Shown here in pieces: positions 45,207 to 63,961 of a stretch of 64,000 nt of DNA. Source of the stretch: Aromatoleum buckelii (GTDB taxonomy: Bacteria > Pseudomonadota > Gammaproteobacteria > Burkholderiales > Rhodocyclaceae); contig NZ_WTVH02000001.1 in NCBI RefSeq assembly GCF_012910785.2, forward strand, positions 186,001 to 250,000. Reading direction: 5' to 3'. Within the stretch, counting starts at the first letter, position 1. The number at the start of each line of letters is the position of its first letter. The notes under the pieces were generated by a model. It was not told where the DNA came from, ran no database searches, and saw only the letters and a program-made list of their open reading frames with translations. The translations under genes were made by a program, and so were the position numbers.

Positions 45207-46235
45207 ATGGAACTCGTCACCGCCCACGACGTGAATCTCGCGCAACTGAGCGCCACGCTCGACGATGAACGCGAACTCCTGGAGCATAAGCGCCGCTACC
45301 TCGACGCGGCGTTGTCGGTGCGCCTGCTGCATTCGGCGCTGACGGATGCGCGGCGATCGGTCGATGTCATCGCCCGCCTGTCGCCCGATTCGCCGGAACT
45401 CCCCGAGTGGTGCGGCTTCATCGCGCGCGCGACGGCCGCGTTGTTCACGTTCGCGCGTCGCCCTGAGCGTGCACAGTGGCGCCTGCTCGACATCGACCGT
45501 ACGCTGAGCGATGAAGTCCGGCGGGAGTCCTTGCAGGCTTCGAGCTGGCTCACCGGCTTCTGGCTGGCGTGGGCGAGCCGGGATGCGTGTTCGCTGGCCT
45601 TGCTGACCCAGGTGCCGGCGGCGCTGCTCGCCGCGGACGAGGCTTTCGACCGCCCGCTGGTGCAGGCGCTGCAGGGCGCGATGACACGCGCCGCGGCCAC
45701 CGGGGAGCGGCTCATCGAGGCCTTGGCACTGGCTGACCCGGAGCGTGTGCAGCGCACCGATCGGGACTGGCTGCTCGACATCCTCGTTCCCGTGTTCGAA
45801 TGCCTGACGCCGCTCATCGACCATGACGAAGGGCGTTTCACCGCGGCGCTGGTCAAGCTGCTCGAACTGCGGCGCGACCATTTTTCGCGCGGCCGGGCGA
45901 AGGGGATGGAGGGCGTGCAGCATCTGTCTGAGGAGGGGGTCGGTCTCGTCGCCTGGTCGAAGGCGCTGGGTTTCGACGTGCCGGTCGCCTCGCCCTATCT
46001 GCCCGAGGCGCTGCTCGGCCTCGAGCCGCCGGAAGTCGTCGCCTGTGCAAGGTGCGCGACACCGGCCGGAGACGGCGAGCACGCGTGCCACGCGTGCGGC
46101 CACGTCGCCGCTGACGACGAGTTGCGTTTCGGCTTCGACGAATGGCTGGGGCTGGACCGCGACGACTGCCCGTATTGCGCCCATCCTTATCCGCTGATCG
46201 CCAGAACGTGTCCGGTGTGCCTGGCTGAGCGGTAG
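45207..46235 (+). CDS. Imm49-like putative immunity protein with C-terminal zinc ribbon
   Basis: A 342-residue protein. Residues about 10-280 are helical and resemble the Imm49 family, notably FWLAWASRDACSLALLTQVP and the terminal GLVAWSKALGFDVPVASPYL. Residues about 285-342 add cysteine pairs CARC, CHAC, CPYC and CPVC, a double zinc ribbon. The gene faces the DUF4157 nuclease toxin gene with only 24 bp between stop codons, so it is well placed to neutralise that toxin, although the convergent orientation is unusual. The ATG at 45207 is used; longer frames overlap the activator gene. The Imm49 call is from pattern recall, not a search. Confidence 0.55.
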   Translation: MELVTAHDVNLAQLSATLDDERELLEHKRRYLDAALSVRLLHSALTDARRSVDVIARLSPDSPELPEWCGFIARATAALFTFARRPERAQWRLLDIDRTLSDEVRRESLQASSWLTGFWLAWASRDACSLALLTQVPAALLAADEAFDRPLVQALQGAMTRAAATGERLIEALALADPERVQRTDRDWLLDILVPVFECLTPLIDHDEGRFTAALVKLLELRRDHFSRGRAKGMEGVQHLSEEGVGLVAWSKALGFDVPVASPYLPEALLGLEPPEVVACARCATPAGDGEHACHACGHVAADDELRFGFDEWLGLDRDDCPYCAHPYPLIARTCPVCLAER

Positions 46236-46259: not shown

Positions 46260-49200
46260 CTATTTGAGATCGAAGGGGGTGACTTCGATTCCGGTGGCGA
46301 CGCTTTTCTCGCCGAGGACGGTGCGCGGGGCAGCGACGATGTCGAACGGGATCTGTACCTTCTCGTAATGGATTTCCGCGGCTTTGCCGCTCAGATCCTT
46401 GCCGGTGGTCAGCGCCGCGCGCAGCTCCTTCGCCGCCTGCCTCGATTCCTTCGACGACGTGGGCCGGCTCATGTCGTCGAGGATCGCGTTGAAGTAATCC
46501 AGGCTTCCCTGCTGCACGTACTTGCCGTTATACCACTTGCCGCCCAAGGGGCTCGTGCCGCCCTTGGCTTCGATGACGAGGTAATGGACCTTGCCGTTCG
46601 CGTCGGTCCATTTGTCGACGCGGTCGAAGTCGCCCGCGCGCGAGCCTTCGCCGCCGTAGACCCGGGTCGGCCGCGCGTCGGCTGCCCAGGCGCGCTGTTT
46701 CGCCCAGGCATCGGCGGCCTGCTCGCCGAGCTTCTGGCTGGCGTCGCGCACCGCCTGGTCCCAACGCTTCGCGGCGGCGTCGTTGTTTTTCGCCAGCGCA
46801 TTGGTGCGCTCGCGGCGGGCGCGGTCGCGCGCGGCGATCAGCTTGTCGATCGTCGCGCGCTGGCGCGGCGTCAGCAGGAGATCGCCTTCAGCGCGCTTGC
46901 CGGTGGTCCTGAACGATAGCTCCTCGGTCTTGCCGGGCTTTGCTGGCTCGTCGTACTTTTCGACGGTCCGGGGCACGCGGTTGGGGTTGTCCGCGCGCTT
47001 GGCTTTGGTGTACATGGCACCGATCTCGGCCTTCGTCAGGTTCGCGGCCGGGTGCGCTTTCTCGAACGCCGAGTTGAATTCGCTCAGCGTTCCCTGACTC
47101 CAGGCCGTGTCGATGCTGAAGCCGTCGATCGTCTTCTTCGCGTACAGGGTCGCCGGCTCGCTGAGGATGTCCGGCAGGTTGGCTTTGCCGAGTTTCCACG
47201 GTCTGATCTGCGCGAGTTCGAGCTGCTTCGCGCGCAGGTTGCTGATGTCCTCGTAGGCGCGGATCAACTCGTCTTCGGAGAGCGGATCGTTTGACTGTTG
47301 CAGCCGTTCGGCGATGCGCTTCTTGGCGTCGATCTCGATCTGGATCGCGGCTTTGGTCGCCGCGAGCTTTTCCCTGGGGGTCAGCTCGGCCCACGGTTTG
47401 CCGGGGTCGAGCTGGGCGAAGAGCTTCTTCATGCGCGGGTCGAGCGACTGCGCGGCGTGCACGCCTTCCTCGTACACGGCGGCGGGGGAGGCGTCTTCGG
47501 AGACGAGGATCTTGGTGACCTTGCCGTTCTCGACGACGACCTTGGCGGTGCGCTTGCTGCCGGCCGGGCCGATCTTGTCGGCGCTGACGATTTCCACCGG
47601 GGGCGCGGTGTCGCCTGCCTTCAGTGGCCCCATGCCGGCTTCGACCGCGGATTTGAGGTCGGCGTGGTGCTGAGTGCGGGCCTGGTCGGCCATGCGCTTG
47701 ACGTCAGCTTCGGGCAGCCCGGCCTGTTTCGCGGTTTCCGTCGCCGCGGCGAGGCGCGTGGCGAGCGTCGGCTTCTCGACCGGCACTGGCGCCGGATGCG
47801 GTTCTCCCGGCGGCGGGGCGCCGAGGTCGGCTTCCAGCGCCTTGAGCGCCTGCACCTGCGGGTCGTGCGCACCCTTGGACTTTTCCAGCTGCTCGCGCGC
47901 GGCCTTGACTTCGGCATGCACGATCGGCAGCTGGCTGGGTTCGAGCCATGCCTTGACGGCTTCGCTGACTTCGCGCGTCGTCTTCGGCGCCCAGCGCGCG
48001 GGGCTGCCCCATTTGCGCACGTTCTTGGCGAGGCCGCCGACGACCTTGTCCTGGACGAACGCAGCCAGCGCGTCGACGACGTCGACGGCGAAGTAGGCCT
48101 GCGCGCGCGCGCCGGCGAAGTGGTTGACATGCATCGCGTCGAAGATCCAGCTCACCAGCGCGAGCACGGTGCCGAGCGGCGAGCCGCCGCTTTTCGCCAT
48201 GATCTTGCCGATGATGCCGGAGAGGAGCCGGCCGATCGGTCCGAGCTGGGCGAGCGCTTCGAGCAGCAGGGAGATGGCCACCGCCTGCGCGACCGCTTCG
48301 GCGAGCACCTTGGGGGCGAAATACTGCAGGACGACGTCCTTGAGGTCGTGCTCGCGGTAGGCGACGTAGAGCGTCGCGCCGACGCGGAATACGGCCGAAT
48401 CGTTGCGCGCGAGCCCTTCGCTCATCGAGCGTTCGAGCGACGCGATGATGTGCCCGGCCGACAGCTGGCTGCTGTCGAAGCGCTTGCGAAGTTCTTCGAT
48501 GCGCGCGCGGGCGGTGTCGACGGTGACGTTGGTCGGCGCCGCGGTGAGGCCGTAGCGCGCCTGGCTGCGGCCTTCGGCGCCTTCGATGCCGTGCTCGCGG
48601 ATCGCCTTTTCGCCGAGCGGGGCGCCGCCCGCCGATTTCGGGTGGTGCGTCTGGGCGAGCAGCGCGCCGGCCTGCGCCGAGGTGGCCCCGTACTCGGCCA
48701 GCGGGGCGGCCATCGTCTTCTGCTCGGCGACCTTGTAGCTGTCGTCGAGAATGCTCTGGTAATAGACGAGGTAGTGCCAGCCCTCGGCGGCCGTCGGGTC
48801 GCGCAGGAAGAGGTAGGTCGCGGCCGGGGGCGCGAGCTGCATCGCGCGCGCAGCGGGCAGCACCGGCACGCCGGCGTGCTGCATCGCCCACAACGCGCGA
48901 AAGGCCGCGCCGGACACGCCGATACCCTGTTCGAGCGCGATCTGGCGGTCCTCCGCGTGGGTTTCGATGGCGCCGTATTCAGGTACGAACTCGTGCACGA
49001 ATTCGTAGTCGGGCATGAGGCCGGCGCCGGTCAGGTCGCGCAGGCGCGGCGCGCCGAGCGGCCCCCAGAGCGTCGGCAGCGCCAGCATCGCGTAGTTGGA
49101 GTAGCCGACCGGCTTCAGCAGCTGGTTCGCCATCCAGCCTTCGAAGCCGAGCTGCATCAGGCCCTGCGAGGCGTTGCGCCAGCCGCGCATGGCGTCGGCG

Positions 49201-50669
49201 ATGGCCGGATCGGCGGCGATCGCGCGCGAAGGCAGGAAGGTGAACCAGCTGTCGAAGACCTTGACGAAGTCGTCGAGCGTTTGCGGCGGCGTTGCCGGGA
49301 CGATCTTGCTGCGTGTGGTTTCGAGGTCTTTGAAGACTTCGTCGGCGCGGTTGGCGAGCGCCACCGACCATTTCTCGGCGGCTTCGTCGGCGGTGCGCGG
49401 GAAAGCTTCCTCCGGGGCGACCTCGACGCCCATTCCGCCCGGCATGGCCGTGGCGAGGAGTTCGGGCTTGGCGCCGAGCGCCTGCTGGGTGGCGGCTTCG
49501 CCTTTCTCGGTCTCGCGCATCTGGGCGAGGCGCCCGGAGAGCGGGCCGAGCTGCCGTTCGAGCGGCGTCGACGACGACGGGTCGAGCGGGGTTCCGACGA
49601 GCGCCGGGTCCTTCATCGCCTGGTCGAGGAGCAGCGCGTGCCGCGCCGTGCGGTTGATCTCGTCGCCGATCGTGCGTCGCTTGGCGAGATTGGCGGCAGG
49701 CGTCACGCCGGGGTCGTCGTGCAGGTCGGCGAGGCGCTGGCGCAGCTCGACCAGGTGCATCAGCGTGTCGTGCAGCTCGAACCACAACAGCGACGCGACC
49801 GAGCCGAAGCGCACCGCAATGCCGGCAAGCGCATCGACCAGCTCCGAGAAGCGTTCCTGCGCCTGCAGGTCGTCGGGGGCGGCGAGGTAGCGCGCGACGG
49901 CCAGCGTCCAGCCGCCGAGGAAGGACTCGGTGCCGACCGAGGGCACGCCGGATTCGAGCTCGCTCGGCAGGCCGGATACGGCGACGACCAGCCGCGGCGC
50001 GTTGACGAGATCCCACGGCGGGCTGGTGACCTGCGGCAGCACGGCGGCGCGTGCTTGGAAAGTCGCCAGTTCGCTGGCGTCGCCGATGTGCAGCGTCGCG
50101 TGCTTGACGAGTTCGGCGACGAATTCGGCGGTCGTCAGGCGCTGGTCGGCGAGCGCCCCCACCAGCGCGTAACGGACCCATTCGGCGTAGCGCCGCTCCT
50201 TCTGCTGCTGCGGGTCGGGCGGCACGTCCGGGTCGCGGGCGATGTGCTTGTCGCCGGTCTCGCGCTGGCGTCGCACGTGGTGCAGTTCGTGCGCGAGCAG
50301 CGCGCGGCCGGCCGGCGTTGCGGGAGCGAAGCGGCCGGCGGCGAAGTAGACGTCGTCGCCGCAGGTGAAGGCGCGTGCTTGCACGGCTTGCGCGCGCTGG
50401 GCGGCGGCGGCGTCGGTGTGCAGGCGGACGCCTGGGGGAACGTCAGGATGGTCGCCTTGCGCGGCGCGCTGGCCGGCTTCGCGTGCTGCCGCTTCCTCGG
50501 CGGCGCTTTCGGCGGCCGTGCTGCGCCGGGGCGGCGGTCTCGCGCGCGCGGCCTGCTGGGTCGCCAAGTTGTCGGCGCCCCGCCGTTCGGGGGCCGGTGG
50601 GGCAGAGAACGCCGGACGAGGTGCGGGAGAAGGCCGACGGAGCGGGGCGAAGCGGGACAGGCGCGTCAT
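46260..50669 (-). CDS. Giant DUF4157 (eCIS-core) protein with a C-terminal PD-(D/E)XK-like nuclease domain
   Basis: A 1469-residue putative injected toxin. A disordered Pro/Arg/Ala-rich N-terminus (1-75) precedes the DUF4157 domain with LLAHELHHVRRQ (HExxH at 127-131), a metallopeptidase-like domain associated with eCIS cargo proteins. A long helical middle with a hydrophobic stretch (AVAISLLLEALAQLG, LLSGIIGKIMA) follows. The last 125 residues contain GDFDRVDKW at about 1346-1354, VIEAKGG at about 1365-1371 and VQQGSLDYFNAIL, the D-ExK pattern of restriction-endonuclease-fold toxins. It ends the minus-strand eCIS unit and faces the Imm49-like gene. A YEEGVHAAQ motif in the middle is a possible second peptidase-like site. 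Confidence 0.75.
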   Translation of the reverse strand: MTRLSRFAPLRRPSPAPRPAFSAPPAPERRGADNLATQQAARARPPPRRSTAAESAAEEAAAREAGQRAAQGDHPDVPPGVRLHTDAAAAQRAQAVQARAFTCGDDVYFAAGRFAPATPAGRALLAHELHHVRRQRETGDKHIARDPDVPPDPQQQKERRYAEWVRYALVGALADQRLTTAEFVAELVKHATLHIGDASELATFQARAAVLPQVTSPPWDLVNAPRLVVAVSGLPSELESGVPSVGTESFLGGWTLAVARYLAAPDDLQAQERFSELVDALAGIAVRFGSVASLLWFELHDTLMHLVELRQRLADLHDDPGVTPAANLAKRRTIGDEINRTARHALLLDQAMKDPALVGTPLDPSSSTPLERQLGPLSGRLAQMRETEKGEAATQQALGAKPELLATAMPGGMGVEVAPEEAFPRTADEAAEKWSVALANRADEVFKDLETTRSKIVPATPPQTLDDFVKVFDSWFTFLPSRAIAADPAIADAMRGWRNASQGLMQLGFEGWMANQLLKPVGYSNYAMLALPTLWGPLGAPRLRDLTGAGLMPDYEFVHEFVPEYGAIETHAEDRQIALEQGIGVSGAAFRALWAMQHAGVPVLPAARAMQLAPPAATYLFLRDPTAAEGWHYLVYYQSILDDSYKVAEQKTMAAPLAEYGATSAQAGALLAQTHHPKSAGGAPLGEKAIREHGIEGAEGRSQARYGLTAAPTNVTVDTARARIEELRKRFDSSQLSAGHIIASLERSMSEGLARNDSAVFRVGATLYVAYREHDLKDVVLQYFAPKVLAEAVAQAVAISLLLEALAQLGPIGRLLSGIIGKIMAKSGGSPLGTVLALVSWIFDAMHVNHFAGARAQAYFAVDVVDALAAFVQDKVVGGLAKNVRKWGSPARWAPKTTREVSEAVKAWLEPSQLPIVHAEVKAAREQLEKSKGAHDPQVQALKALEADLGAPPPGEPHPAPVPVEKPTLATRLAAATETAKQAGLPEADVKRMADQARTQHHADLKSAVEAGMGPLKAGDTAPPVEIVSADKIGPAGSKRTAKVVVENGKVTKILVSEDASPAAVYEEGVHAAQSLDPRMKKLFAQLDPGKPWAELTPREKLAATKAAIQIEIDAKKRIAERLQQSNDPLSEDELIRAYEDISNLRAKQLELAQIRPWKLGKANLPDILSEPATLYAKKTIDGFSIDTAWSQGTLSEFNSAFEKAHPAANLTKAEIGAMYTKAKRADNPNRVPRTVEKYDEPAKPGKTEELSFRTTGKRAEGDLLLTPRQRATIDKLIAARDRARRERTNALAKNNDAAAKRWDQAVRDASQKLGEQAADAWAKQRAWAADARPTRVYGGEGSRAGDFDRVDKWTDANGKVHYLVIEAKGGTSPLGGKWYNGKYVQQGSLDYFNAILDDMSRPTSSKESRQAAKELRAALTTGKDLSGKAAEIHYEKVQIPFDIVAAPRTVLGEKSVATGIEVTPFDLK

Positions 50670-50693
50670 CCTGGTCTCGTGGCGCCTCGGCGG

Positions 50694-51308
50694 TCACAGC
50701 CGCTTGCGTCCGTCCGCATCGAACACCGCCGAGATCGCGTCGCCGTCGATGATCACCGCGAACCCGGGCGGCAGCGCGAGTGCGGACAACACGACGGGCC
50801 GCTGGCGCAGGAGGGTGAAGACGCGCTGCGCGTCGAACGCGTCCGCGTCATGCGCGGATCCCGGCTGCTCCGGCGACGAGATCGTCCAGCCGCTGTCGTC
50901 ATCGCGCTGGGGGGGCGAACGGAAGAGCTGCAGCGTGCGCGATTCGAGCGCCCCGCGGGCGACGACGACGAACTGCTCGAAGCCCGCGTCCAGCGGTGTT
51001 GCGCCGACGCGGCGCACGAGCGCCGCCTGCTGCGCGAGCACGTCGAGCGTCGTGTCGACGCCTGGATGCTGGTCGCGCAGTGGATCGCCGGCGAAGTCCG
51101 GCTCGCTGACGACGAGGGCGCCGCCGTCGTCGCGCAGGGTCAGGATCGACCAGCCGAAGCGGACCTTCATGCCTGCGTGCAGCGGGTCGTCGCGGGCGAT
51201 GCGGGTGAGTATCGCGAGAAAGTCTTCGGCGAGCGGCTGGCGGGACGGCGCGCAGGCGAGCGCGACGTGGCGGCCGCCGATGGTGCGCGAGAGCGTGGTC
51301 GTCGTCAT
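50694..51308 (-). CDS. Small protein coupled between the two DUF4157 genes; possible immunity protein or chaperone
   Basis: A 204-residue soluble protein (MTTTTLSRTIGG, later DDSGWTISSPEQPG and GFAVIIDGD). I do not recognise the family with confidence; the DSGW element faintly recalls Imm33/DUF2185 proteins. Its ATG overlaps the stop of the HNH-type DUF4157 gene by four bases (ATGA), so the two are translationally coupled, and it ends 24 bp before the next DUF4157 gene start. Position directly after a nuclease toxin makes immunity or loading chaperone the likeliest roles, both inferred. Confidence 0.5.
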   Translation of the reverse strand: MTTTTLSRTIGGRHVALACAPSRQPLAEDFLAILTRIARDDPLHAGMKVRFGWSILTLRDDGGALVVSEPDFAGDPLRDQHPGVDTTLDVLAQQAALVRRVGATPLDAGFEQFVVVARGALESRTLQLFRSPPQRDDDSGWTISSPEQPGSAHDADAFDAQRVFTLLRQRPVVLSALALPPGFAVIIDGDAISAVFDADGRKRL

Positions 51309-54300
51309 CGGCTGACCCCTCGCCGCGCCAGCATTTCGTTGATCCTCGCCTGCAGCGTCTCGCGCAGTTTGGCCTCGGCCTGCGCCATCGCTGCCAGTTG
51401 CTCCTTGGTGTAGTGCTCGAGGCCTTGCGGCCAGGCGGCGAACGGACGGGCGTTGCGCGATTGGTTGGCCGCCGCCTTCATCGCTTTCAGATTGGTGAGT
51501 TCGTTGGCGAGCTTGAGCTGCTCGTCGGGGAGGAGCAGGAGGAAGCCGTCCATGTCGATCATTTCGCGCAGCGGGACCACGTGATCGACCCACATGTTCG
51601 ACGTGGCGAGGGGCGCATGGCTGATCTCGTCGATCGTCTTGCCTTCGGCGTTCCGGGCGCGGGCGATGATCTGATCGCGCACGTCTCCCGGCGAGCGGGC
51701 GCGCAGCTGCTTGTAGACGCCTTCCGCGGTTTCGCGGCGCGCCTTTTCCGCCGCCTTGAGCAGGTTCGGGATCTCGATCTGAGTCGTCTTCGCCAGCTCG
51801 CGCGCGCGATCGGCGCGCGCGGCCTGAACGTCGGCGAGCGTCAGGCTGGCCGGGTCGCGCTCGCCGAAGACGGCCGCCAGCGTTTCGCGCTCGGACGGGC
51901 TGAGGGCACCGACGCGCATTGGCGGCTGCTGCGTTTCCAGCTTGCGCAGGAGATCGTATTCCTGCCGGATGAAGCCCACTTTCTCCTGCGCTTCGGCGAC
52001 GCGCGCCTGCGCCGACTCGAGCTTCTGCAGTTTCTGCAGCTGCTCGGGACTCGGCGGCTTGGCGCCCGGAATGGTGGTTCCGCACAGGGTCTTGACGCTG
52101 AACCGGCACCACGTGCCGTCGGGACGTCGGCGCCAGACGTGCTGATTGCCCAGATCGACCTCGTCGACGTAGCCGGCGACGGTGCTGGGCTGCGGCTGGC
52201 TGGCGGCGACGACGTCGATCTCGGCCTGTCGCTCCGCCGCGGTCAAGGTCTTGCCGTCGGACTTGCCGGCGGTCTTCGCAAGGACCGCTTCCCGCTCCTT
52301 GCCGACCACTGTCCCGGGCGGGTGGCGCGCGGCGCTGCGGAAATCGGCATAGAGCTGTTCGCGCAGCACGCGCGCCTGATCCTGCGTCAGATGCGCTTCG
52401 AGCTTGTCGACGAGTTCGTTCATCGCCTTCAGGTCGCCGCGCAGCGCCGCTTCGCGCGCGGCTTTCAGCGTCGGCTCGACCCCCGCCTGCCTGAGCGTGC
52501 TTTCCAGCCCCTGCATCGCGACGGCGTTACGCAGCCACGAGGTGCCGTGCCCGAGCGTGGCCAGCGCGGCGCCGGCGACCGCGCCGCCGCCGAGGCCGGC
52601 GAGCCCGCCGACGAGCGCCGCCTGACCGACCTGCGCCAGGCCGTTGGCGATGCCGCGCCGCCACGTGCGGGCGTCGGTCATCGCGCCGAACGCTTCGCTG
52701 ATGCTGCCGGAGAACGCGCCGTCGAGCGCGCCCTCGACGGCGCTCGCGGCCACTTTACGGGCGAATTTCTGCGTCGCCTGTTCGGTGACTTCGCCGGCCA
52801 GGCGGGCCGCGTTGCTGGTCAGCGCGCGGCCGCCAAAACCCAGCAGCTCGGTGCCGCGCGACGCGAGCTGGCCGCCGACGACCGCCAGCGCCGCATCCAC
52901 CGCGCCGAGCAGCGCATCGCGGGCGCCTTCGTCGCTGAGGGCCTTGTAGTATTCGCCGCCGAACATCTCGCGCGTGACGACGCGGCTGCCGGCGCCGGCC
53001 GCCGCGGCGAGGGCGATGACCGCGGGCGTCGCGGCGCCGCCGGTGGCGGCGACAACGACGATGCCGGCCACCGTGGCCGCCACCATTCCGGCCATCTCGC
53101 CGATCATGTTGCCGGTATCGACGAACTCCTGCGTGCGCGACTCGAAGCGCTGATGCAGCGCGACCAGCGTCGAGTAGTCGATCATCGACAGCTTCTTGCG
53201 GTCGCGCACGCGCAGCCATAGCGCCTCGAACTCGCGCGCGGCAGCGTCCATCGTCTCGTCGGTTTCGGTGAAGTGCTGGACGACGCCGCGACCGAGCGCG
53301 AGCCGCGCGAGCTGCTGCTCGTACATGATCGCCGCGGCCTGGTAGCGCCCTTCGTCGCTGGCCAGTTCGGCGGCGGTCGGCTCCGAGCCGAGCACCGCGA
53401 TGAGCACGGCCGTGAAACCGCTGCGGCTGAAGATGCCGGCGGTCGTCTGCGAGGCGCGCACTTCGCTTTCGAGCTTGCGGTAGGCCTGCAGCGCGTCGTC
53501 CTGCGCTTTAGTCAAGGCCCCGGCCGGCGGCTGCTTCGTCAGGAAGTAGCCGAGCTGCAGCTGCGCGCGCTGCTCCTCGCCGATGTCGGCGAACGCGTCG
53601 CGGATCAGCTCGACGTTGCCGCTGTAGGCGAGGATCTTGGCGAGCGGCAGCCGGCGCGGGTCGGCGAGGATTTCGCGCATGACCTTGCCGGGCTCGCCGG
53701 CGGCATCGGCGCGTGCGAACACGCTCGCGGCGCCGACGTGCTGGGTCGCTTCCTCTTCGAACTTCTTCTTCCACGCCGGGTTCTGCGCGATCTTGAAGAC
53801 GACCTGGAAGAACTCGCCCCAGCGCGCGGCGTTGAGGGCGGCATGCGCCTGCGCATAGACTTCGTCGTAGCGGTCGGCCGCGATCGCATCCTTCACTCGC
53901 CTCTGCTCGCTGCCTTTCAGGCCGGCGATCACTCCCTGCACCGGACCGTTGTCGAGCACTTTCTGCCGGAACGCGATGTTCGCGAGGTGCTGGCGGTGTT
54001 CGCGCTCGCGCGCTTCCGTCCCGGGTGCGAGATCGACCGGCGGCGCATGCAACGTCTTGATGATCAGCGCGATCGCATCGGCGTCTCCGGCGGACAGGAG
54101 GATGCGCTGGCGGGCCGCGTCGATGGCGAATTTCTCGGCGTCCTTCGCCTCGACGAACTCGCCGAATCGTGCGACGTCGGCACCGAAGCCTTCGGCGCCG
54201 CGGGCCTCGGCGAGCATCGCCATGAAGGTGTTCGGCGGCAGCACGCCGGTCTCGCTGCGCTGGAAGTCGAGCAGCTTGTCGAGCTCCTTGAGTTCCTCGA

Positions 54301-55903: not shown

Positions 55904-58041
55904 CGGGTCGGTTCTCCGGCAGGACGGCGATCGGCGCGTCCATCGGCGCTCGCGGTTTCGGCGAGCAGCGAGAAGTACTCGCGGAACTCGGCGACCGTAG
56001 ATACCCGGCCGCGCTTGGTGTTCTGCCGAGCGACCGCGCGCAGCAGGTCGGTCATGCCGATGGCGCCGGCGGCGCGCGCCGCCTGGTAGGCCGCGTCGAG
56101 GACGATGTTGCGGATGTCGCCGCCGGCGAGCGCGAACTGGCGGGCGAGGAAGGCGAAGTCGACGTCGGCGGCGAGCGGCGCCTGCGGCGGGATCATGCGC
56201 CGCCACAGCGCTTCGCGGCTCGCCGCGTCGGGCATCGGGAACTCGACGACGAACTGCATGCGGCGCGAAAAGGCTTCGTCGATGTTCTTCGCGAGGTTGG
56301 TCGCGAGGATGACGATGCCGTCGTGGTCCTCCATCTTCTGCAGCAGGTAGGCGGTTTCGATGTTGGCGTAGCGGTCGTGCGCATCCTTGACCTCGGAGCG
56401 CTTGCCGAGCAGCGCGTCGGCCTCGTCGATGAACAGCACGGCGTTGGCGCGGCGCGCCGCGGCGAACGCGCGGTCGAGGTTCTTCTCGGTCTCGCCGATG
56501 TATTTCGACGTGACCTGCGCGAGCTCGATGCGCTGCAGTTCGAGCTCGAGCGTGCGCGCAATGATGCCCGCGGCCATCGTCTTGCCGGTGCCGGACGGCC
56601 CGGCGAACAGCGCCTTGACGCCGCGGGCGGCGCCGAGGCGCGCGGCGAAGCCCCAGTCGTCGAGGACGCGGCAGCGCAGCTCGATGGCGCTGACGAGGTC
56701 GTGCAGGCGGGCGCGGACGTCGCTTGGCACCATCAGGTCGCCCCAGGCGAACGGCGTGGATACCGTGCTCGTCGTGCCGGCGCCGGCGTCGCCCGAAGCG
56801 GCGCGCGCCGCGGCGAACAGTTGCCGCGGCGACGCCGCCGGCTCGCCCGTGAGCAACGCAGCGTGCGCCGCCGTGGCGGCAGCCTCGTGAATGCGCTCGG
56901 CACCGAGGACGAAGCGGTCGGCGAGCGCGTCGACGGGGGCCGCGTCGCCGTGCGCGCCGAGGGCGCTGCGCCACAGACGGCGGCGGGCGGACGCGTCCGG
57001 TTCGGGGAGCCGGATTTCGAGCGCGGGCGTTTCGGCCAGGAGCGGGCGCCAGCGGCTTCCTTCGGACGCCGCGAGCATCAGCGTGGGCGATCGCGCCGCC
57101 AGCCGCCGCAAAGGGGCCGCGACGGTCTCGACGTTGCGGCCGTCGGGGTCCGTCAGCGCGTCGAGCGGCGACGCGACGATGGCGACGCCGAGCACTTTTT
57201 GCATCAACCCGGCCGCCGCGACGGCGTCGGCGGGCGACGGCGCGGCGGCGAGCGCGGCGAGGTCGAGGACGAGCGCCGGGCAGGCGGCACGCGCGAAAAC
57301 GGCCTGCGCCGCCAGGGCCGCGTCGCCGGCGCCGGGAGCGGTGACGACGAGCAGCGGCAGGGGCATACCGTCGTCGAGCAGGCGCGGCACGTGCGCCAGC
57401 GCTGCGGGCAGCTCGATCGCCCGGACGGCGTCGGAGTCGCGCGCCCGGACGACGCCGCTCAGGCGTTCGTCGATCCACGGCAGGCCCTGCAGCCAGCCTA
57501 CGAGCGCCGGTGCGACGCGCAGTCCGCGCCGCGCGCGCGCGAGGTCGTGCTGGCCGGAGACGACTTCGACGGCGCCGCAGGCGAGCAGCGGCGCCTCGGG
57601 CGCCAGCAGACCTTTCAGCGCGACGGCGTGCGCCGCGTCGGCGGCCAGGAGCCGCGCCGCGAGTTCGGCGGTCGGCAGCCGCCGCGTCACGTCGTTGTTG
57701 AGATAGGCGTACAGGGTTTCGTACTTGCCGTCGAGCTCGGGCGCGAGGCACACGAGCAGCAGGTCCCGCTCGTCGTCGCTCAGCGCGAGCGCCGCGGCGA
57801 CGTGCGACCAGGGCGACAGCGGCGCCGCGGCGCGTTGCTGCGCGATCGCGTCGGCCGGCTCGTCGGGGTGGGAGGCTACCGAGCGCAACAGGTCGTCGAC
57901 CTGCTCGTCGCTGATGTAGAGGCCGCGGAATTCGTCGAGCGACAGCTCGTAGCGCGCCCGCAGGCGCTCGATCGCGCGCGCGATGCGGGTGTCGAGGCGG
58001 GCGAGCTCGGGAGCGAGCGCGGCGAGGGAGTCGGCGATCAT
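55900..58041 (-). CDS. Afp15-type AAA+ ATPase of an extracellular contractile injection system
   Basis: A 713-residue AAA+ protein resembling the conserved ATPase of eCIS loci (Afp15 in the antifeeding prophage). An N-terminal helical region and a degenerate ATPase-like module (APGAGD at 235-240 where a Walker A would be) precede the active module: Walker A GPSGTGKT (481-488), Walker B LFIDEAD (536-542), sensor ATN (580-582) and FSRRM arginine finger (591-595). In characterised systems this ATPase helps assemble the particle or load cargo. Its neighbours match the usual order tape measure, ATPase, toxins. It is coupled to the following DUF4157 gene by a four-base overlap. Confidence 0.85.
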   Translation of the reverse strand: MIADSLAALAPELARLDTRIARAIERLRARYELSLDEFRGLYISDEQVDDLLRSVASHPDEPADAIAQQRAAAPLSPWSHVAAALALSDDERDLLLVCLAPELDGKYETLYAYLNNDVTRRLPTAELAARLLAADAAHAVALKGLLAPEAPLLACGAVEVVSGQHDLARARRGLRVAPALVGWLQGLPWIDERLSGVVRARDSDAVRAIELPAALAHVPRLLDDGMPLPLLVVTAPGAGDAALAAQAVFARAACPALVLDLAALAAAPSPADAVAAAGLMQKVLGVAIVASPLDALTDPDGRNVETVAAPLRRLAARSPTLMLAASEGSRWRPLLAETPALEIRLPEPDASARRRLWRSALGAHGDAAPVDALADRFVLGAERIHEAAATAAHAALLTGEPAASPRQLFAAARAASGDAGAGTTSTVSTPFAWGDLMVPSDVRARLHDLVSAIELRCRVLDDWGFAARLGAARGVKALFAGPSGTGKTMAAGIIARTLELELQRIELAQVTSKYIGETEKNLDRAFAAARRANAVLFIDEADALLGKRSEVKDAHDRYANIETAYLLQKMEDHDGIVILATNLAKNIDEAFSRRMQFVVEFPMPDAASREALWRRMIPPQAPLAADVDFAFLARQFALAGGDIRNIVLDAAYQAARAAGAIGMTDLLRAVARQNTKRGRVSTVAEFREYFSLLAETASADGRADRRPAGEPTR

Positions 58042-58086
58042 GGCGGAGTCATCGTGAGGGTTGTCGCTCGCTGCATCGCGCCGCCT

Positions 58087-59781
58087 TCACCGCTCGGCCT
58101 CGATCCGCAGCGCGCGTCCGTCCGGGAACACTATCGTGCCGCGATTGACGCCGACGAGCGTCAGCAGCACGTCGAGCGGGGCGCGCCCCAAGCGCACCGT
58201 GATGCCGGCGCTGTCCAGCGCGACGCTTGCGCTCATCGACAGGCATTGGCTGCGCAGGTACGCCGGGCTCGATTCACGGCAGCCCGGAAGGCGCGAGGCG
58301 AATTCGCGCAGCAGGTTCAGCGCGACGACGGCGAGGACGTTGTCGAGCTCGCCGTGCGCCGAAACCGGGTCGTGGGCGTCCCACCAGGCGACCGCGGCGG
58401 CGACGTCGTCCGGCGCTCCGGACGAAGGCACGTTCGCCGAGACGAGCACGGCACCGGCCGGCAGTGCGGCAGCCACCGCGGAGGCCGCGCGCGGGGGCCG
58501 GTAGAGGCCGACGACGCTGCCGCGGTCCGCCTCGATCAGCGCGACGCGCCGGCGGCGTCCGGCGCCGAGCATCGTCGTGGCGAACGTACGCGATTGCAGC
58601 GGGACGATCGGCAGCGCCAGTACCTGCCGCAGCGACGCCGTTGGCGGTCGAGGGGCGTGGCCGAGAGCGCGGCGCAGCAGCGGATCTTCGGTGATGAGGG
58701 CATGCGCATCGCCCAGCAGCGCCCGCGCCGCGACCGCGAGCACGAGACCTTGTGCGGCGCCGCAGGGCTCGAGGGCGTGCCAGCGCTGCCACCAGCCGAG
58801 CCGCCCGAGCAGCGCGAAGAGCAGCCAGATGCCGCCCCACGCGCTGCGTTCGCGAACGGCGTCGGGGGCCGCGGCGTTCACCGTGCCCTGCCGGGCCTTG
58901 TTCAGCTCGTCGAGCAGTTCGTCGACTTCGGCATCGCTCCATGCCGCGGCTGTCTCCGGACCGATGCCGACGGCCGCGCAGCAGCGCAGCAGCGCGACGC
59001 GCGGCGACGAAGCGGCTGCCAGGATCGACGCCAGCGCGCCGGCGCGGGCACTGGCTCGCAACGTTTCGAGCGCATGCAGAGCGTTCACGGCAGCGCCTCC
59101 GGCCGCTTCCGGAACGTTGCGCGCGAGCGTCGTCAGCGCCGCGAGCAGGCGATGCCGAGCGCCGGCGAAGTGCTCGACGAGCGGCGAGGCGAGCGCTTCG
59201 CGCAGCGCGGCGAGCGAGGGCGCGGGGCCGTCGCCGGTCAGCGCGGACAGCAGCCGCTGTCCATCGGCCGGAGTCAGCGCCTGCAACACGCGGCGCGCGG
59301 CGTCGTCAGTCAGGCGCGCGAGCGCCGCGCGTCCGGTCGCCCCTTCGTCGCCGAGCACCGTGCGTAGCGCCGACGACAGCGGCAACAGGCGCAGCCCCTC
59401 GAACTCGTCGAACCACCAGCGCCGGTCGGCCTCGCCATCGGCGAGCGCGATGACGAAGCTGGCGACGAACTCGGCGCGGTCGGCGAAGCGGTGTACGCTC
59501 CCGCCGTCGCCGTGCACGGTCAGCGCGCGCATGAAGTCGCGGGCGAAGACGTGTGCCATCCGATCGTCGTCCCACGCAGCGTTCAGCGCGCAGTCGAAGC
59601 TCAGACGCTCGATGAAGACGAGGCTGTCGTCGTCGGCCCCCTCGAGGCCGACCGCGATCGCCTCGGCGAGCCGCCGCCCCGCCACGTCGCGCAGGCGGGC
59701 GAGCAGCGCGTCGGCGCGATCCGGCGCGGCCGTGGCGACGACGGAAAGGTGCAGGCGGTCAATGGTGCAGGTGGCGGGCAT
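58087..59781 (-). CDS. Contractile injection system tape-measure-like protein (Afp14/CIS_TMP type)
   Basis: A 564-residue protein whose N-terminus has the pattern of the eCIS tape-measure family: IDRLHLSVVATAAPDRADAL, then VFIERLSFDC about 45 residues later. The rest is helical and Ala/Arg/Leu-rich with WGGIWLLFALLGRLGWWQRW in the middle, similar to the internal motif of that family. The tape measure sets the length of the contractile tube. The ATG at 59781 is four bases after the fibre-like gene stop; longer frames to 59865 overlap that gene. The call depends on pattern recall and on position before the ATPase gene. Confidence 0.6.
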   Translation of the reverse strand: MPATCTIDRLHLSVVATAAPDRADALLARLRDVAGRRLAEAIAVGLEGADDDSLVFIERLSFDCALNAAWDDDRMAHVFARDFMRALTVHGDGGSVHRFADRAEFVASFVIALADGEADRRWWFDEFEGLRLLPLSSALRTVLGDEGATGRAALARLTDDAARRVLQALTPADGQRLLSALTGDGPAPSLAALREALASPLVEHFAGARHRLLAALTTLARNVPEAAGGAAVNALHALETLRASARAGALASILAAASSPRVALLRCCAAVGIGPETAAAWSDAEVDELLDELNKARQGTVNAAAPDAVRERSAWGGIWLLFALLGRLGWWQRWHALEPCGAAQGLVLAVAARALLGDAHALITEDPLLRRALGHAPRPPTASLRQVLALPIVPLQSRTFATTMLGAGRRRRVALIEADRGSVVGLYRPPRAASAVAAALPAGAVLVSANVPSSGAPDDVAAAVAWWDAHDPVSAHGELDNVLAVVALNLLREFASRLPGCRESSPAYLRSQCLSMSASVALDSAGITVRLGRAPLDVLLTLVGVNRGTIVFPDGRALRIEAER

Positions 59782-59785
59782 GGTT

Positions 59786-62023
59786 TCACGACGTGCCGAT
59801 CGCGATGAAGCTGAACGCGGTGTCTTGGGGCGACGGTGCCCCACCGCCGACGACGTCGCGCACACGCACGACGAAGCCGGCAGACGTGACCCCCGACAGC
59901 GTCAGGACATTGTCGTCGTTCAGCGAGTCGATCGGCGTGGCGACGACGATCGGCGCGCCGGAAAAGAGGGGCGCGAAGCTCACCGAGTAGTTGCCGGAGC
60001 CTGCTCCGTTCCTGACCGCGACGAAGCCGCTGCCGGTGAAGCTGCCGTCCGCCTCGATCCGGCCGAAGATCATGCGCGTCGCCGCGTTGGCGCCCACGGC
60101 GAAGAGGTTGGGCACGGCGCCGAAGAGGATGTTGCCCTTGACTTCGAGCTTCTGCACGTGCGGCACGAGGCCGATGCCGACGAGACCGTCGGGTTCCCCG
60201 CCGGGGCTAGGGTTCATGACGATGTGGCGGTCGGCGGGGCCGCCCGGGTGCGTGCTGCGCAGATACAGGTGGCTGGTCGTCGACTGCACGTCGACGGCGC
60301 TGCCGTCGGTGCGCAGCTCGAGCACGCGCGACCCGGGTGCACCGGTGACGTTCTCGACGCGCACGCGGTCGCCCTGCACGTGCAGCTTCGCTGCCGGCAG
60401 CAGCGTGCCGATACCCACGTTGCCGCCAGCCTGCAGATAGAGGCGACCGTCGGCGACGCCGGTTTCGGCGACGTTGAGCGCCTTGCCGGCCGGATCCCGG
60501 TGCAGGTTGAAGTGCCACTTGCTGGCGCCGCCGGCGTCCTCGAGGCTGATCAGCTCGTCGAAGTCCGGCGACGCAGAGGTCTGGCCGCGCACTGCGAGCG
60601 GATTGCGCGGCACGTCGGCGCCGACGCCGACGCGGTGGTTCGGCGTGACGAAGACGACGCCGCGCCAGGTGCCGGGTCCGGTGCGGTGCGCGAGGCGCAG
60701 CGAGCCCGCCGGCGAGTTCGTGAGCTGCGCGATCCACGTCTCGCCGCCGACGCCCCCGTCGAAGCGCAGTGTCGGTTGCGCGCCCGACAGGCGCAGTGCG
60801 CCGTCTTCGTTTCCGGCCCAGTCCCCCTTGACTTCGAGCGCCGCGGCGGGCGTAGCGGTGTTGACGCCGACGCGCCCCTCGGCGGTGTTGCCGGCGGCGC
60901 CGCTGACGACGACGAGGCGGGGCGCGATCGTCCCCCCCGCTTCGACCGGCCCGACGAACAGCCTGTTGTCGGTTTGGCTCGTATCGCCGATGGCGACGCG
61001 CAACTCGCGCTTGCCGTCGCCGCCGAGATCGTCGCCGAAGCGGGCGAGATACAGCGGCGTCTTGCGCTCCTCGCCGTCGCCGTCGCGCAAGTGCAGCTTG
61101 CCGCCGTTGATCTTGGCGTCGCCGCCGATGCGCAGGTTGCCTTCGACCCATACCAGGTCGTCTTGCAATGCAGCCACCTTGGCGGGGTCCGCGAGCAGCC
61201 GCACGTAGCGGTGTAGCGCCGTCGGGTCCTCGCCACGCGCGTGCAGCACGATCACGCGGGCGGCCGCCTCGATGCGCTCGGCGACGACGCCGGCGTAACG
61301 GCGCAACGCGGCGATGCGCCCGTCCACTTCGTCGGTCGCGACGAGGTCGCGTTTGGCGAAGTAGCCGAGCGCGTTGTCGCGTGCAATCCAGCGCACGAAA
61401 CCGAGCGGCACGAGCCAGCGCGGCGGCTTGCCCGCAGGGAAAGTCTGGTGCGGCACCGAGGTGTCCCACAGTTTGGGCGCCGCTGCGTCGAACTGCGTCA
61501 GCGCGTCGAGCGCATCCACGCTGGCCGTACCGATCGTCACCGGCGAGCGCTGCGCGGCGGGCGGCTGCTGGCCGACGACGAAGCGGAAGCTCTCGCCGAT
61601 GCGCGCCGTCTGGTCGTCGGTCGCGCAGGTCTCGAAACCGGGCTGCGGGTTGCCGGTCGCGATCTCGTCGTAAGCGATCCACACCGGCACGAGTCGCCCG
61701 GTGCCGGTGTTCGGATCGTCGAGCGCCGGACTGAACGGGATCTGGGCGAAGAGCGTTTCCGGCAGTCGCGTCGGCCGCGCTACGGCGAGCGGCCGTCCGA
61801 AGCCGTCCCAGCCGAAGCCGGGCAGCAGCGTCACGTCGACACGGTTCGGCGCGCCGGGCGCGGCGCGCTCGCTCAAGGTCAGACCGACGGCGATTCCCCA
61901 GGTGTGCGCGCCCAGCACGTGCCGCGCGTCGCCGATGCGCTGCGCATCGACGATCGCCGTCAGGTCGTCGGCGCTGAGATATTGGCCTTCGAAGAAGCGC
62001 GGTCGTTGGTCCTGGGCGCCCAT
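59786..62023 (-). CDS. Fibre-like eCIS protein with an RFFxGQ N-terminal domain
   Basis: A 745-residue protein. The N-terminus RFFEGQYLSADDL and GAHTWGIAVGLTL is shared with the next upstream gene product (RFFPGQLLTDDDL). Residues about 290-640 contain repeated beta-structured units of tail fibres (NLRIGGDAKING, RVGVNTATPAAALEVKGD, VGIGTLLPAAKLHVQGD, VGIGLVPHVQKLEVKG), and the C-terminus is a compact beta domain. Such repeats form triple beta helices in receptor-binding fibres. It occupies the place of Afp13 upstream of the tape measure and ATPase genes, so it is probably a host-binding fibre or baseplate-attached protein. Confidence 0.65.
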   Translation of the reverse strand: MGAQDQRPRFFEGQYLSADDLTAIVDAQRIGDARHVLGAHTWGIAVGLTLSERAAPGAPNRVDVTLLPGFGWDGFGRPLAVARPTRLPETLFAQIPFSPALDDPNTGTGRLVPVWIAYDEIATGNPQPGFETCATDDQTARIGESFRFVVGQQPPAAQRSPVTIGTASVDALDALTQFDAAAPKLWDTSVPHQTFPAGKPPRWLVPLGFVRWIARDNALGYFAKRDLVATDEVDGRIAALRRYAGVVAERIEAAARVIVLHARGEDPTALHRYVRLLADPAKVAALQDDLVWVEGNLRIGGDAKINGGKLHLRDGDGEERKTPLYLARFGDDLGGDGKRELRVAIGDTSQTDNRLFVGPVEAGGTIAPRLVVVSGAAGNTAEGRVGVNTATPAAALEVKGDWAGNEDGALRLSGAQPTLRFDGGVGGETWIAQLTNSPAGSLRLAHRTGPGTWRGVVFVTPNHRVGVGADVPRNPLAVRGQTSASPDFDELISLEDAGGASKWHFNLHRDPAGKALNVAETGVADGRLYLQAGGNVGIGTLLPAAKLHVQGDRVRVENVTGAPGSRVLELRTDGSAVDVQSTTSHLYLRSTHPGGPADRHIVMNPSPGGEPDGLVGIGLVPHVQKLEVKGNILFGAVPNLFAVGANAATRMIFGRIEADGSFTGSGFVAVRNGAGSGNYSVSFAPLFSGAPIVVATPIDSLNDDNVLTLSGVTSAGFVVRVRDVVGGGAPSPQDTAFSFIAIGTS

Positions 62024-62108
62024 GGCGTGCTCCTAGCGAGTGGCTCGGGGGGAATGCGACAGGCGAGGCAGGCGTGGCACTTTCCGCGTCGTGCGTGCCC
62101 AGGCGCCC

Positions 62109-62125
62109 CCCGGCGCTGCGCCGGG
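62109..62125. terminator. Short GC-rich hairpin between eCIS genes
   Basis: CCCGGCG (62109-62115) and CGCCGGG (62119-62125) form a 7-bp stem with a CTG loop in the 153-bp gap after the 62177 gene. There is no T-tract, so it may only pause transcription or be chance. Confidence 0.25.
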
Positions 62126-62176
62126 ATGACCTTCGTTCGCGGAACGACGAGCACGGATCGGTCGCATGTGCCTCTC

Positions 62177-63961
62177 CTACTGCCGCTTGTTCAGCTTGTC
62201 GATCTGCTTCTGCTGCGCGGCGACGAGGCGCTCGAGGTCGGCGACCTTGCGCGAGATGTCGTTGACGTCCGCGGCCGGCCCTGCTGCGGCCAGCGGGGCC
62301 AGCGCGGAGGCGTCGGAAGCGCGCGCGAGCAGCGCCGCCCACAGCGGGTGGTGCTTCGACGCGGCGCCTTCGCTGCGCAGCGCTTCATAGTCCTTGAGCA
62401 TGAAGCTCAGCAGGTGGTCGGCGGCGAGCGCGTCGGCGAGCGGGTCCCCGCCCGTTTCCGGGGACGGGGTCGTCGGCGGGCGCCTCGCCGCCGCCCTGGC
62501 GATTCCCGGCGTGCTCGCGGCCCCGCCCTGCTGGCCCGAAAAGGCGACGCCGATCATCAGCATCAGCAGCCGGTAGACGCTTCGCTCGCGCTCGTCGCCG
62601 CAGCACAGGTCGGAAATCCACTTGCGCAGCAGCCCCCACGGCAGCCACGACAGCCAGTACATGATCGTGCGCCACGTGACGAGGATCTTGCGTGCTTCCC
62701 AATTGCAGATCTCGACCACGCGGCAGGTGTCGCCGCCGACGGTGACGACCGCGAGCGGAACACAGTTGTCCGGCGACGGCGGCGGGCACGCCGGCAGCAG
62801 CGCCGAGCAGAAGCACTCGGAGATGATGTCGAGCCAGGTCATGTCGAGCGCGGCGACGTTGCCCTTGAGCTGGCGTACCTGGTCCCTGGTGAGAACGCGA
62901 GGTTCGCCGACGCGGCGAACGAACTCGCGCGCGTCGTCGTACTGGCGCTGCACGCGGGAAACGAAGGCGCAGCGGTGCAGGGAAAAGTCGGCGGCAAACT
63001 CCTGCAGCGCGGCTGCGTAGTCGGTATAGACCGACAGCGAGGCGGTGACGTCGAGCGCCTTGCCTTCGCGGATCGCCGCGCGCAGCTCCATCGCACGCGT
63101 GACGCAGCACAGCAGCCGTTCGAGCAGCGGGCCGAAGCGCGCGCGGTTCGCGTACAGCCACGCCCAGATCAGGTCGCCGGAACGCTCGCCGGCCGGGTCC
63201 GGAAGCTTCGCCGGCTTCGGCGCCGGGTAGGCGACGAAGCGGTAGCCTTCGCAGACCTGCGTCGGTTCGCATTGCGGCGCGTAGTCTTTGCGCCGCGGCG
63301 GGGCCGTCTCCCCATTCAGGCCGCAGCTGCAGTCGCCGCTCCTGCCCGGCGCTGCGCCGCTGCAGCTGGCGCAGCCGCAGCTCGTCGAACCGCCGCAAGC
63401 GCAGCGCGTGCCGCAAGGGGTGTCGCCCATCCCGAGTTGCGCGGTCATGCCGCGCACCGGCCGCTCGTCGTAGCAGATCGCCAGCACCCAGTCGCGCGCC
63501 TTGCCGCTGCAGTCCTGCGGCGGCGTGTCGTACGGCGGGTCGCACACCGGCTGGCGCGGCGCACACGTGTTGATCAGCGCGCAGAGGTCGACCGACTGGT
63601 CCGCGCAGACGACGATGTCGTCGCCGCATGGCGAGACCGCGTAACCGGTGCGGACGATGACGTGCCCGGGCGCGCAGGGGTCGCAGCCGACTTCGAGGCC
63701 GCAGGCCACGCCCCACCCATGCAGGTAGCGGTTGTGCAGGCGGTTCTTGTCGATGACGTACTGCTCGAGCCGATTGAGGTCGTCGTCCGTCAGCAGCTGT
63801 CCGGGAAAGAAACGCGGGCGGCACAGGCACTTGAGTCCGCCGCATGCCGGACACCGCGGCGTGCAGTCCTCCGCGCAGGGGTCGGGCCGCTGGCGTGCCG
63901 GCGCCCACGGGTTGACCGTGTCGAGGCGTTGCGTGGCGTCGTACATGAAGTCGTGCGACAT
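62177..63961 (-). CDS. Cysteine-rich eCIS-associated protein with an RFFxGQ domain
   Basis: A 594-residue protein at the right edge of the window. A cysteine-rich head (CTPRCPACGGLKCLC) leads into RFFPGQLLTDDDLNRLEQYV and then HGWGVACGLEV, the same domain as in the fibre-like protein downstream. A second cysteine cluster (CACGGSTSCGCASCSG) interrupts the beta-rich part, a helical region with TWLDIISECFCSALLPACP follows, and the C-terminus ends in a coiled coil (VADLERLVAAQQKQIDKLNK). No function is established. It starts at an ATG with GGAGA upstream. Co-direction and shared domain suggest a structural role together with the fibre-like protein. Confidence 0.6.
   Translation of the reverse strand: MSHDFMYDATQRLDTVNPWAPARQRPDPCAEDCTPRCPACGGLKCLCRPRFFPGQLLTDDDLNRLEQYVIDKNRLHNRYLHGWGVACGLEVGCDPCAPGHVIVRTGYAVSPCGDDIVVCADQSVDLCALINTCAPRQPVCDPPYDTPPQDCSGKARDWVLAICYDERPVRGMTAQLGMGDTPCGTRCACGGSTSCGCASCSGAAPGRSGDCSCGLNGETAPPRRKDYAPQCEPTQVCEGYRFVAYPAPKPAKLPDPAGERSGDLIWAWLYANRARFGPLLERLLCCVTRAMELRAAIREGKALDVTASLSVYTDYAAALQEFAADFSLHRCAFVSRVQRQYDDAREFVRRVGEPRVLTRDQVRQLKGNVAALDMTWLDIISECFCSALLPACPPPSPDNCVPLAVVTVGGDTCRVVEICNWEARKILVTWRTIMYWLSWLPWGLLRKWISDLCCGDERERSVYRLLMLMIGVAFSGQQGGAASTPGIARAAARRPPTTPSPETGGDPLADALAADHLLSFMLKDYEALRSEGAASKHHPLWAALLARASDASALAPLAAAGPAADVNDISRKVADLERLVAAQQKQIDKLNKRQ

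Follow-up and report, generated by a model that had tools for sequence, protein, structure and literature searches.

Within a 64,000-nucleotide stretch of the Aromatoleum buckelii genome (hereafter the window; bases 186001-250000 of contig C1 in a 4.16 Mb genome), we identified the end of a contractile injection system (CIS) operon that encodes two giant eCIS_core (DUF4157) proteins, D1 and D2, each of which ends in a predicted nuclease tip and lies directly beside a predicted immunity gene. As judged from the sequence, the locus probably encodes a CIS that acts against bacteria through two nuclease toxins, each paired with an immunity protein, and would be a further member of a kind that has been published. 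Proteins with DUF4157, long linkers and C-terminal toxins, antibacterial toxins of extracellular CISs (eCISs), and immunity genes have all been described in the papers cited below; what is new is a member with an unusually clear tip-immunity cassette. Most of the verified antibacterial toxins of Geller et al. lack an immunity gene, which those authors called an "intriguing mystery" (PMC8213781). In contrast, both cargos described here have a candidate immunity gene, and one of the cassettes can be traced across several kinds of carrier. The D1 and D2 pairs make the target, the loading and the immunity directly testable.

An initial annotation of this stretch had described seven consecutive minus-strand genes in the order fibre, tape measure, ATPase and cargo. 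We found all seven in that order, with the CIS13 and CIS_TMP matches below their cut-offs. They are listed below together with the cargo tips and two plus-strand neighbors.

62177..63961, minus strand: CIS13-family-like (fibre-like) protein, 594 amino acids (NCBIfam CIS13_fam E 1.3e-7, far below the cut-off)
59786..62023, minus strand: CIS13-family-like (fibre-like) protein, 745 amino acids (NCBIfam CIS13_fam E 4.8e-8, far below the cut-off)
58087..59781, minus strand: tape measure protein candidate, 564 amino acids (Pfam CIS_TMP E 7.9e-6, 25.9 bits against a cut-off of 27.8)
55900..58041, minus strand: AAA ATPase with a winged-helix N-terminal domain, 713 amino acids (Pfam AAA E 1.3e-26, WHD E 7.5e-22)
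51305..55903, minus strand: D1, eCIS_core (DUF4157) protein, 1532 amino acids (Pfam eCIS_core E 7.9e-26, residues 124-196)
51305..51817, minus strand: predicted C-terminal HNH-type nuclease tip of D1, last 170 amino acids (BLASTP, motif residues)
50694..51308, minus strand: Imm33-like predicted immunity protein, 204 amino acids (Pfam PF24719 E 1.8e-16, above the cut-off)
46260..50669, minus strand: D2, eCIS_core (DUF4157) protein, 1469 amino acids (Pfam eCIS_core E 8.3e-20, residues 80-138)
46260..46976, minus strand: predicted C-terminal PD-(D/E)XK-type nuclease tip of D2, last 238 amino acids (BLASTP, motif residues, AF2 model)
45207..46235, plus strand: Imm49 predicted immunity gene (Pfam PF15575 E 1.4e-25, above the cut-off)
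43763..45172, plus strand: sigma-54 activator gene (Pfam Sigma54_activat E 2.6e-61)

The four-base overlaps that had been proposed to tie D1 to the ATPase and to a small protein were real, each reading ATGA (55900-55903 and 51305-51308, respectively), and the ATPase gene occupies the position of Afp15/Pvc15. D2 and Imm49 are arranged tail-to-tail with 24 bp between them. The starts of the tape measure candidate and of Imm49 (45207, within an open frame that begins earlier) were chosen by us. A Pfam scan of the two fibre-like proteins returned zero matches.

The seven genes had been read as the end of a locus whose missing part should lie beyond the window, and the tube, sheath and baseplate genes were looked for there. 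Stretches reaching 37 kb beyond the window (L001 and L002) were gene-called and then scanned with Pfam and NCBIfam, and the remaining CIS genes were found upstream on the same strand. The genes for tube, sheath, spike, baseplate and cap thus stand together in one cluster, with the AAA ATPase, the tape measure candidate and the eCIS_core proteins at the operon end. In particular, the upstream part encodes a Pvc16_N cap protein, two sheaths (1040 and 685 amino acids), two gp19-type tube proteins, a CIS_tube protein, two VgrG-related spike proteins, a TssE-like protein, a baseplate J protein, a CIS12/Tail_P2_I protein and a third CIS13-like fibre protein (L001:490-2907). Both gp19 tubes, both sheaths, Pvc16_N, Phage_base_V, Baseplate_J, CIS_tube and Tail_P2_I scored above the Pfam cut-offs; the CIS12, CIS13, CIS5, TssE and VgrG-related matches were below the NCBI cut-offs, and these names are given by likeness. 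Three further genes of the cluster (L002:3-1322, L001:8078-8857 and L001:11898-12107) matched no Pfam or NCBIfam family. We also observed that the three CIS13-like proteins lie in tandem, with the family match spanning just the first part of each, and that the first part of the CIS12/Tail_P2_I-like baseplate protein (L001:2935-5577) includes a stretch of NHL repeats (Pfam E 8.3e-6). A sequence search of the PDB with this protein returned NHL-type repeat proteins only, and the tape measure candidate and the cap had no matches in that search.

The initial annotation had also described two DUF4157 proteins of about 1.5 kilo-residues with an HExxH domain near the N-terminus. Profile searches agreed, as Pfam eCIS_core was found on both proteins, while CIS_TMP was slightly below its cut-off on the tape measure candidate. 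The HExxH motifs are HELAH at residue 188 of D1 and HELHH at residue 127 of D2; D1 matches the longer HExxHxxQ signature (HELAHTLQ), whereas D2 (HELHHVRR) lacks the Q. Each cargo begins with a Pro/Ala/Arg-rich N-terminus (judged by eye), followed by the metallopeptidase-like eCIS_core domain, more than 1,000 residues that are unlike between the two proteins, and the nuclease-type tip, and both frames are open to their ends. This arrangement, an N-terminal eCIS_core with a predicted C-terminal toxin domain, is that of the PVC-metallopeptidase polymorphic toxins of Zhang et al. 2012, which have an N-terminal HExxH domain and a variable C-terminal toxin (PMC3482391). Geller et al. 2021 likewise described eCIS operons accompanied by genes for toxins and immunity proteins, and proteins with N-terminal DUF4157, a C-terminal toxin and linkers sometimes exceeding 1000 residues (PMC8213781). 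A third eCIS_core protein was not found in the genome search.

The two tips had been proposed to be interchangeable warheads on a common loading scaffold. Relatives of both tips do occur on other carriers, as described below, but the scaffold is limited to eCIS_core. A BLASTP comparison of D1 with D2 aligned this domain (51% over 81 amino acids, E 9e-12), and the remaining alignments had E >= 2.6. With full-length D1 as the query, 23 of 101 genomes matched, own genome counted (22 of the 100 others), and among the matches listed those outside its own genome fell within residues 9-246, around eCIS_core. Because these matches are confined to the region around eCIS_core and D1 and D2 show no other likeness, the shared scaffold is a domain and not a whole protein, and a common scaffold outside it was rejected, since BLASTP gave just chance-level matches elsewhere. 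This suggests that eCIS_core is the part that fits a shared warhead to the CIS machine. D1 and D2 without eCIS_core had no closer relatives in viral_contigs. The GC contents of the D1 and D2 tips (last 0.5 kb) are 65.5 and 65.8%, compared with 71.8 and 70.2% for the rest of the genes and 62.5% for the first 40 kb of the window; the lower tip values would be compatible with tip exchange, but they do not prove it.

Unrelated nuclease-like tips, HNH-like and PD-(D/E)XK-like, had been suggested for D1 and D2, and the corresponding motifs lie at residues 1440-1480 of D1 and 1349-1392 of D2. The D2 motif reads D...ExK...Q...Y, and E1316, D1349, E1367xK1369, Q1387 and Y1392 are invariant in all eight aligned sequences. 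These are the residues of Tox-REase-1 and Tox-REase-6 (E, D, ExK and Q, with Y for type 6); no Pfam toxin family matched the tip, and the REase naming follows the motif. Structure prediction of the tips had been recommended and succeeded for D2, as the AlphaFold2 (AF2) model of its last 186 amino acids had a predicted local distance difference test (pLDDT) score of 86; for the D1 tip, prediction from the single sequence yielded no usable model (pLDDT 53). Comparison of the D2-tip model with known structures listed many restriction endonucleases, Holliday junction resolvases and cap-snatching endonucleases, which are PD-(D/E)XK folds; no match stood out, and the top row was a protein without known function.

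The D2 tip matched the C-terminus of an RHS protein on plasmid p1 of Pseudoalteromonas shioyasakiensis (L068) by BLASTP with E 1e-17 and 28% over 236 aligned columns. Imm49 is the next gene there, as it is here; the carrier there is an RHS protein with Imm49 on the same strand, whereas here it is an eCIS_core protein with Imm49 on the opposite strand. Across the 61 sources scanned, Imm49 adjoined the D2-type tip in every one of the eight tip-bearing loci, always above the Pfam cut-off, and it was found in one of the 53 scanned loci without such a tip. Five of these eight loci took no part in model building; the second scan used the Pseudoalteromonas relative as the query, which biased the set to RHS carriers. 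The carriers are RHS, DUF637/CdiA-like and type VI secretion system (T6SS)-type proteins and, here, eCIS_core; the Hahella carrier lies behind a gene that we read as a T6SS adaptor. From these alignments and neighborhoods, the D2 tip and Imm49 form a cassette that recurs on several kinds of carrier. The D2 tip had no relatives in genome_contigs and retrieved only itself from 274 genomes of the class.

Imm49 lies just outside the region that the initial annotation had covered and had been missed by it. In the table of Zhang et al., Imm49 is listed for Tox-REase-1 and -6, and the rows for these two toxins do not name PVC, whereas here an REase-type tip sits on an eCIS_core protein (PMC3482391). 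Of 150 related genomes including its own, 5 had Imm49 above the cut-off (nine at E <= 0.001), and its own genome holds a single copy. Its product ends in a zinc-ribbon-like stretch (DZR E 2.2e-4, below the cut-off). In two genomes of the same family (G023 and G400), Imm49 (Pfam) occurs in a cluster that we read as comprising genes for VgrG, a PAAR protein of the DUF4150 type, a toxin and immunity proteins. The toxin candidate of that cluster differs from the D2 type, and an Imm49 gene by itself is therefore no predictor of a D2-type tip.

The D1 tip matched the C-terminus of a Tox-PAAR-like/DUF4150 protein of Rhizobium tumorigenes, which sits behind VgrG and DUF2169 genes (BLASTP E 1e-15), and more weakly a Rhodococcus protein (E 1e-3), beside which no immunity gene was seen by annotation. 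Its motif reads DH...N...N, with D1440, H1441, N1471 and N1480 kept in all three aligned sequences; when checked against the Tox-DHNNK motif of DH, N, N, N and K, it keeps DH and two N and has R where the two relatives have K. The Pfam GmrSD_C match of the tip (E 0.016) was below the cut-off. Besides itself, the tip found two weak matches as a query in the 274 class genomes and four matches as a three-row model in 349 genomes of the order.

The small protein tied to D1 by the gene overlap can now be specified as a predicted immunity protein of the Imm33 group, which had been missed before; the PF24719 match is above its cut-off, while the older Imm33 model reached only E 0.055, below the cut-off. 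In the table of Zhang et al., Tox-DHNNK and Tox-HNH are paired with Imm33, and PVC is named as one of their secretion routes (PMC3482391). The gene after the Rhizobium D1-tip relative is unlike the Imm33-like gene and has no Pfam match, and another relative (G414) lies on what we read as a long CdiA-like frame, followed by a gene without a Pfam match. As the relatives of the D1 tip have other neighbors, the pairing of D1 with the Imm33-like protein rests on the overlap, the Imm33-like match and the table of Zhang et al. The Imm33-like family is as rare as Imm49, with matches above the cut-off in 5 of the 150 related genomes (own genome included) and a single copy here. Its relatives include, in Priestia megaterium, a gene that immediately follows that of an RHS protein whose tip looks HNH-like (our reading) and, in Paraburkholderia, a member of a CdiA-type gene array; by eye, others were away from any recognized toxin (Priestia flexa; loci G073, G402, G406, G054, G658, G698, G626, G640 and G508). 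We also observed a locus (L045:4819-9548) in which a long gene with a D1-like tip is followed by four near-identical-looking genes of about 284 amino acids and one Imm49 gene; one of the repeated genes was scanned and had no Pfam match, and they may form an immunity array.

The gene content, the domain families, the conserved catalytic-type residues of the D2 tip and its cassette with Imm49 are shown by the sequence; we infer the loading, the bacterial target, the tip release and the neutralization by both immunity proteins as follows. The AAA ATPase would help to load cargo onto the tube or spike, as Pvc15 loads cargo in PVC (PMC11495950), and both cargos would be taken up while their immunity partners are held off or stripped. 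The particle would then contract onto another bacterium, and the tip would be set free in the recipient and cut nucleic acid. Imm33-like and Imm49 would bind the tips, so that the producer survives its own toxin and that of its sister cells. Release of the tip through cutting by the eCIS_core domain was proposed by Zhang et al. (PMC3482391). Danov et al. considered a chaperone or loading role for eCIS_core and found the metalloprotease motif to be dispensable for one toxin (PMC11297309).

The reading as an antibacterial CIS is favored because CIS genes adjoin and because members of two rare immunity families, both above the cut-off, lie directly beside D1 and D2. It is also favored because D2-tip relatives with Imm49 occur on RHS, CdiA-like and T6SS-type carriers and the D1 tip on a Tox-PAAR-like protein, and because of published precedents, namely haloarchaeal DUF4157 toxins rescued by a partner and an eCIS toxin-immunity pair in E. 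coli. The pair that Geller et al. tested in E. coli, a RES-like toxin with an Xre-like antitoxin, is unlike the pairs described here (PMC8213781). A particle aimed at eukaryotes, like Afp and PVC, would use the nucleases against host DNA or RNA, with the immunity genes guarding the producer during synthesis only; four eCISs were known to mediate interactions of bacteria with invertebrate hosts (PMC8213781), and nuclease toxins are able to act on any cell. We consider this unlikely, given that relatives of both tips occur on bacterial RHS, CdiA-like and T6SS-type carriers and that the D2 tip is always accompanied by an immunity gene. For Geller et al., immunity genes next to a toxin speak for an antibacterial role (PMC8213781), and Zhang et al. 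read a lack of them as pointing to distant targets (PMC3482391). A literature search pairing Imm49 or Imm33 with "contractile injection" found nothing among the papers searched, which carries low weight as the wording of Zhang et al. is PVC.

To compare the machine itself with known structures, we searched the PDB with the sheath, baseplate and tube sequences. The top match of the 685-residue sheath was 8bky of Streptomyces coelicolor (252 bits, compared with 126 for the best Afp or Pvc chain), and that of the 1040-residue sheath was 9ezm of Halogeometricum borinquense (352 bits, compared with 323 for 8bky and 163 for the best Afp or Pvc chain); the bit scores of the sheaths from these two organisms are about double those of any chain from Afp or Pvc. 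The S. coelicolor CIS is cytoplasmic and linked to death of the producer cell, and the term DUF4157 is absent from the main text of that report (PMC10066040). The H. borinquense CIS is archaeal and membrane-bound; like the present locus it includes DUF4157 proteins, two of which are toxic and rescued by a downstream partner, whereas its authors report no tape measure homologue and a candidate is present here (PMC11566945). The best match of Baseplate J was 9gtp, whose sheath sequence is identical to that of 8bky. The tube matched best 7adz and 7b5h, entries of AlgoCIS, an extracellular CIS, and of an Anabaena CIS. As the sheaths point to non-released systems and the tube to an extracellular one, the extracellular mode named in the initial annotation is one possibility among others.

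Compatible with an antibacterial role, the machine might stay in the cytoplasm, as in Streptomyces, or dock on the membrane and act by contact, as in Halogeometricum. The sheath and Baseplate J matches favor such a location, whereas the tube matches and the fibre-like genes speak against it, and with few CISs in the PDB a nearest pairwise match does not indicate lineage; we regard it as possible, though less probable than its converse. We also searched for the T6SS sheath VipB, which had no match in this genome and was present in 6 of the 11 same-genus genomes searched; hence a canonical T6SS is no evident route for the two tips in this genome. We tentatively propose, at somewhat short of an even chance, that a CIS with Streptomyces/haloarchaeal-like sheaths kills bacteria in a genome without a T6SS, having drawn its warhead-immunity cassettes from the pool of T6SS, RHS and contact-dependent inhibition (CDI) systems, with eCIS_core as the sole common loading tag.

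The sigma-54 activator gene shares the strand of Imm49 and directly precedes it. Sigma-54 promoters (TGGCAC-N5-TTGC, <=1 mismatch) were not in excess in the window, L001 or L002, and control of the CIS by this activator is therefore unsupported.

Nine of 16 same-genus genomes hold a different CIS, whose sheath is 39-40% identical over about 250 amino acids, and Imm49 or Imm33-like genes were present in 0 of the 16; a genus-wide origin of the locus was rejected on these counts. The other CIS has two eCIS_core proteins in eight of the nine genomes and one in the ninth, with lengths that differ from those of D1 and D2. These proteins have about 840 and 1140 amino acids (L052-L062 and L066); by eye, their C-termini are near-identical between species unless cut by a contig end, and no immunity gene is obvious nearby. 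Together with the metallopeptidase-like motif of eCIS_core, this pattern would fit D1 and D2 being assembly or structural proteins, such as particle-maturing peptidases, with C-termini that are relics. The conserved catalytic-type residues of the D2 tip, the frames open to the end and the immunity-type neighbors at both genes make this very improbable. Additionally, a same-family genome encodes a 1234-residue eCIS_core protein (L063:4957-8661) that ends in Endonuclea_NS_2 (Pfam E 5e-7), a DNA/RNA non-specific endonuclease domain and thus a third nuclease tip on eCIS_core. In a further locus (L065:9213-12839), a 1051-residue frame with an eCIS_core match is directly followed by a gene for 153 amino acids, and the two may form a toxin-immunity pair.

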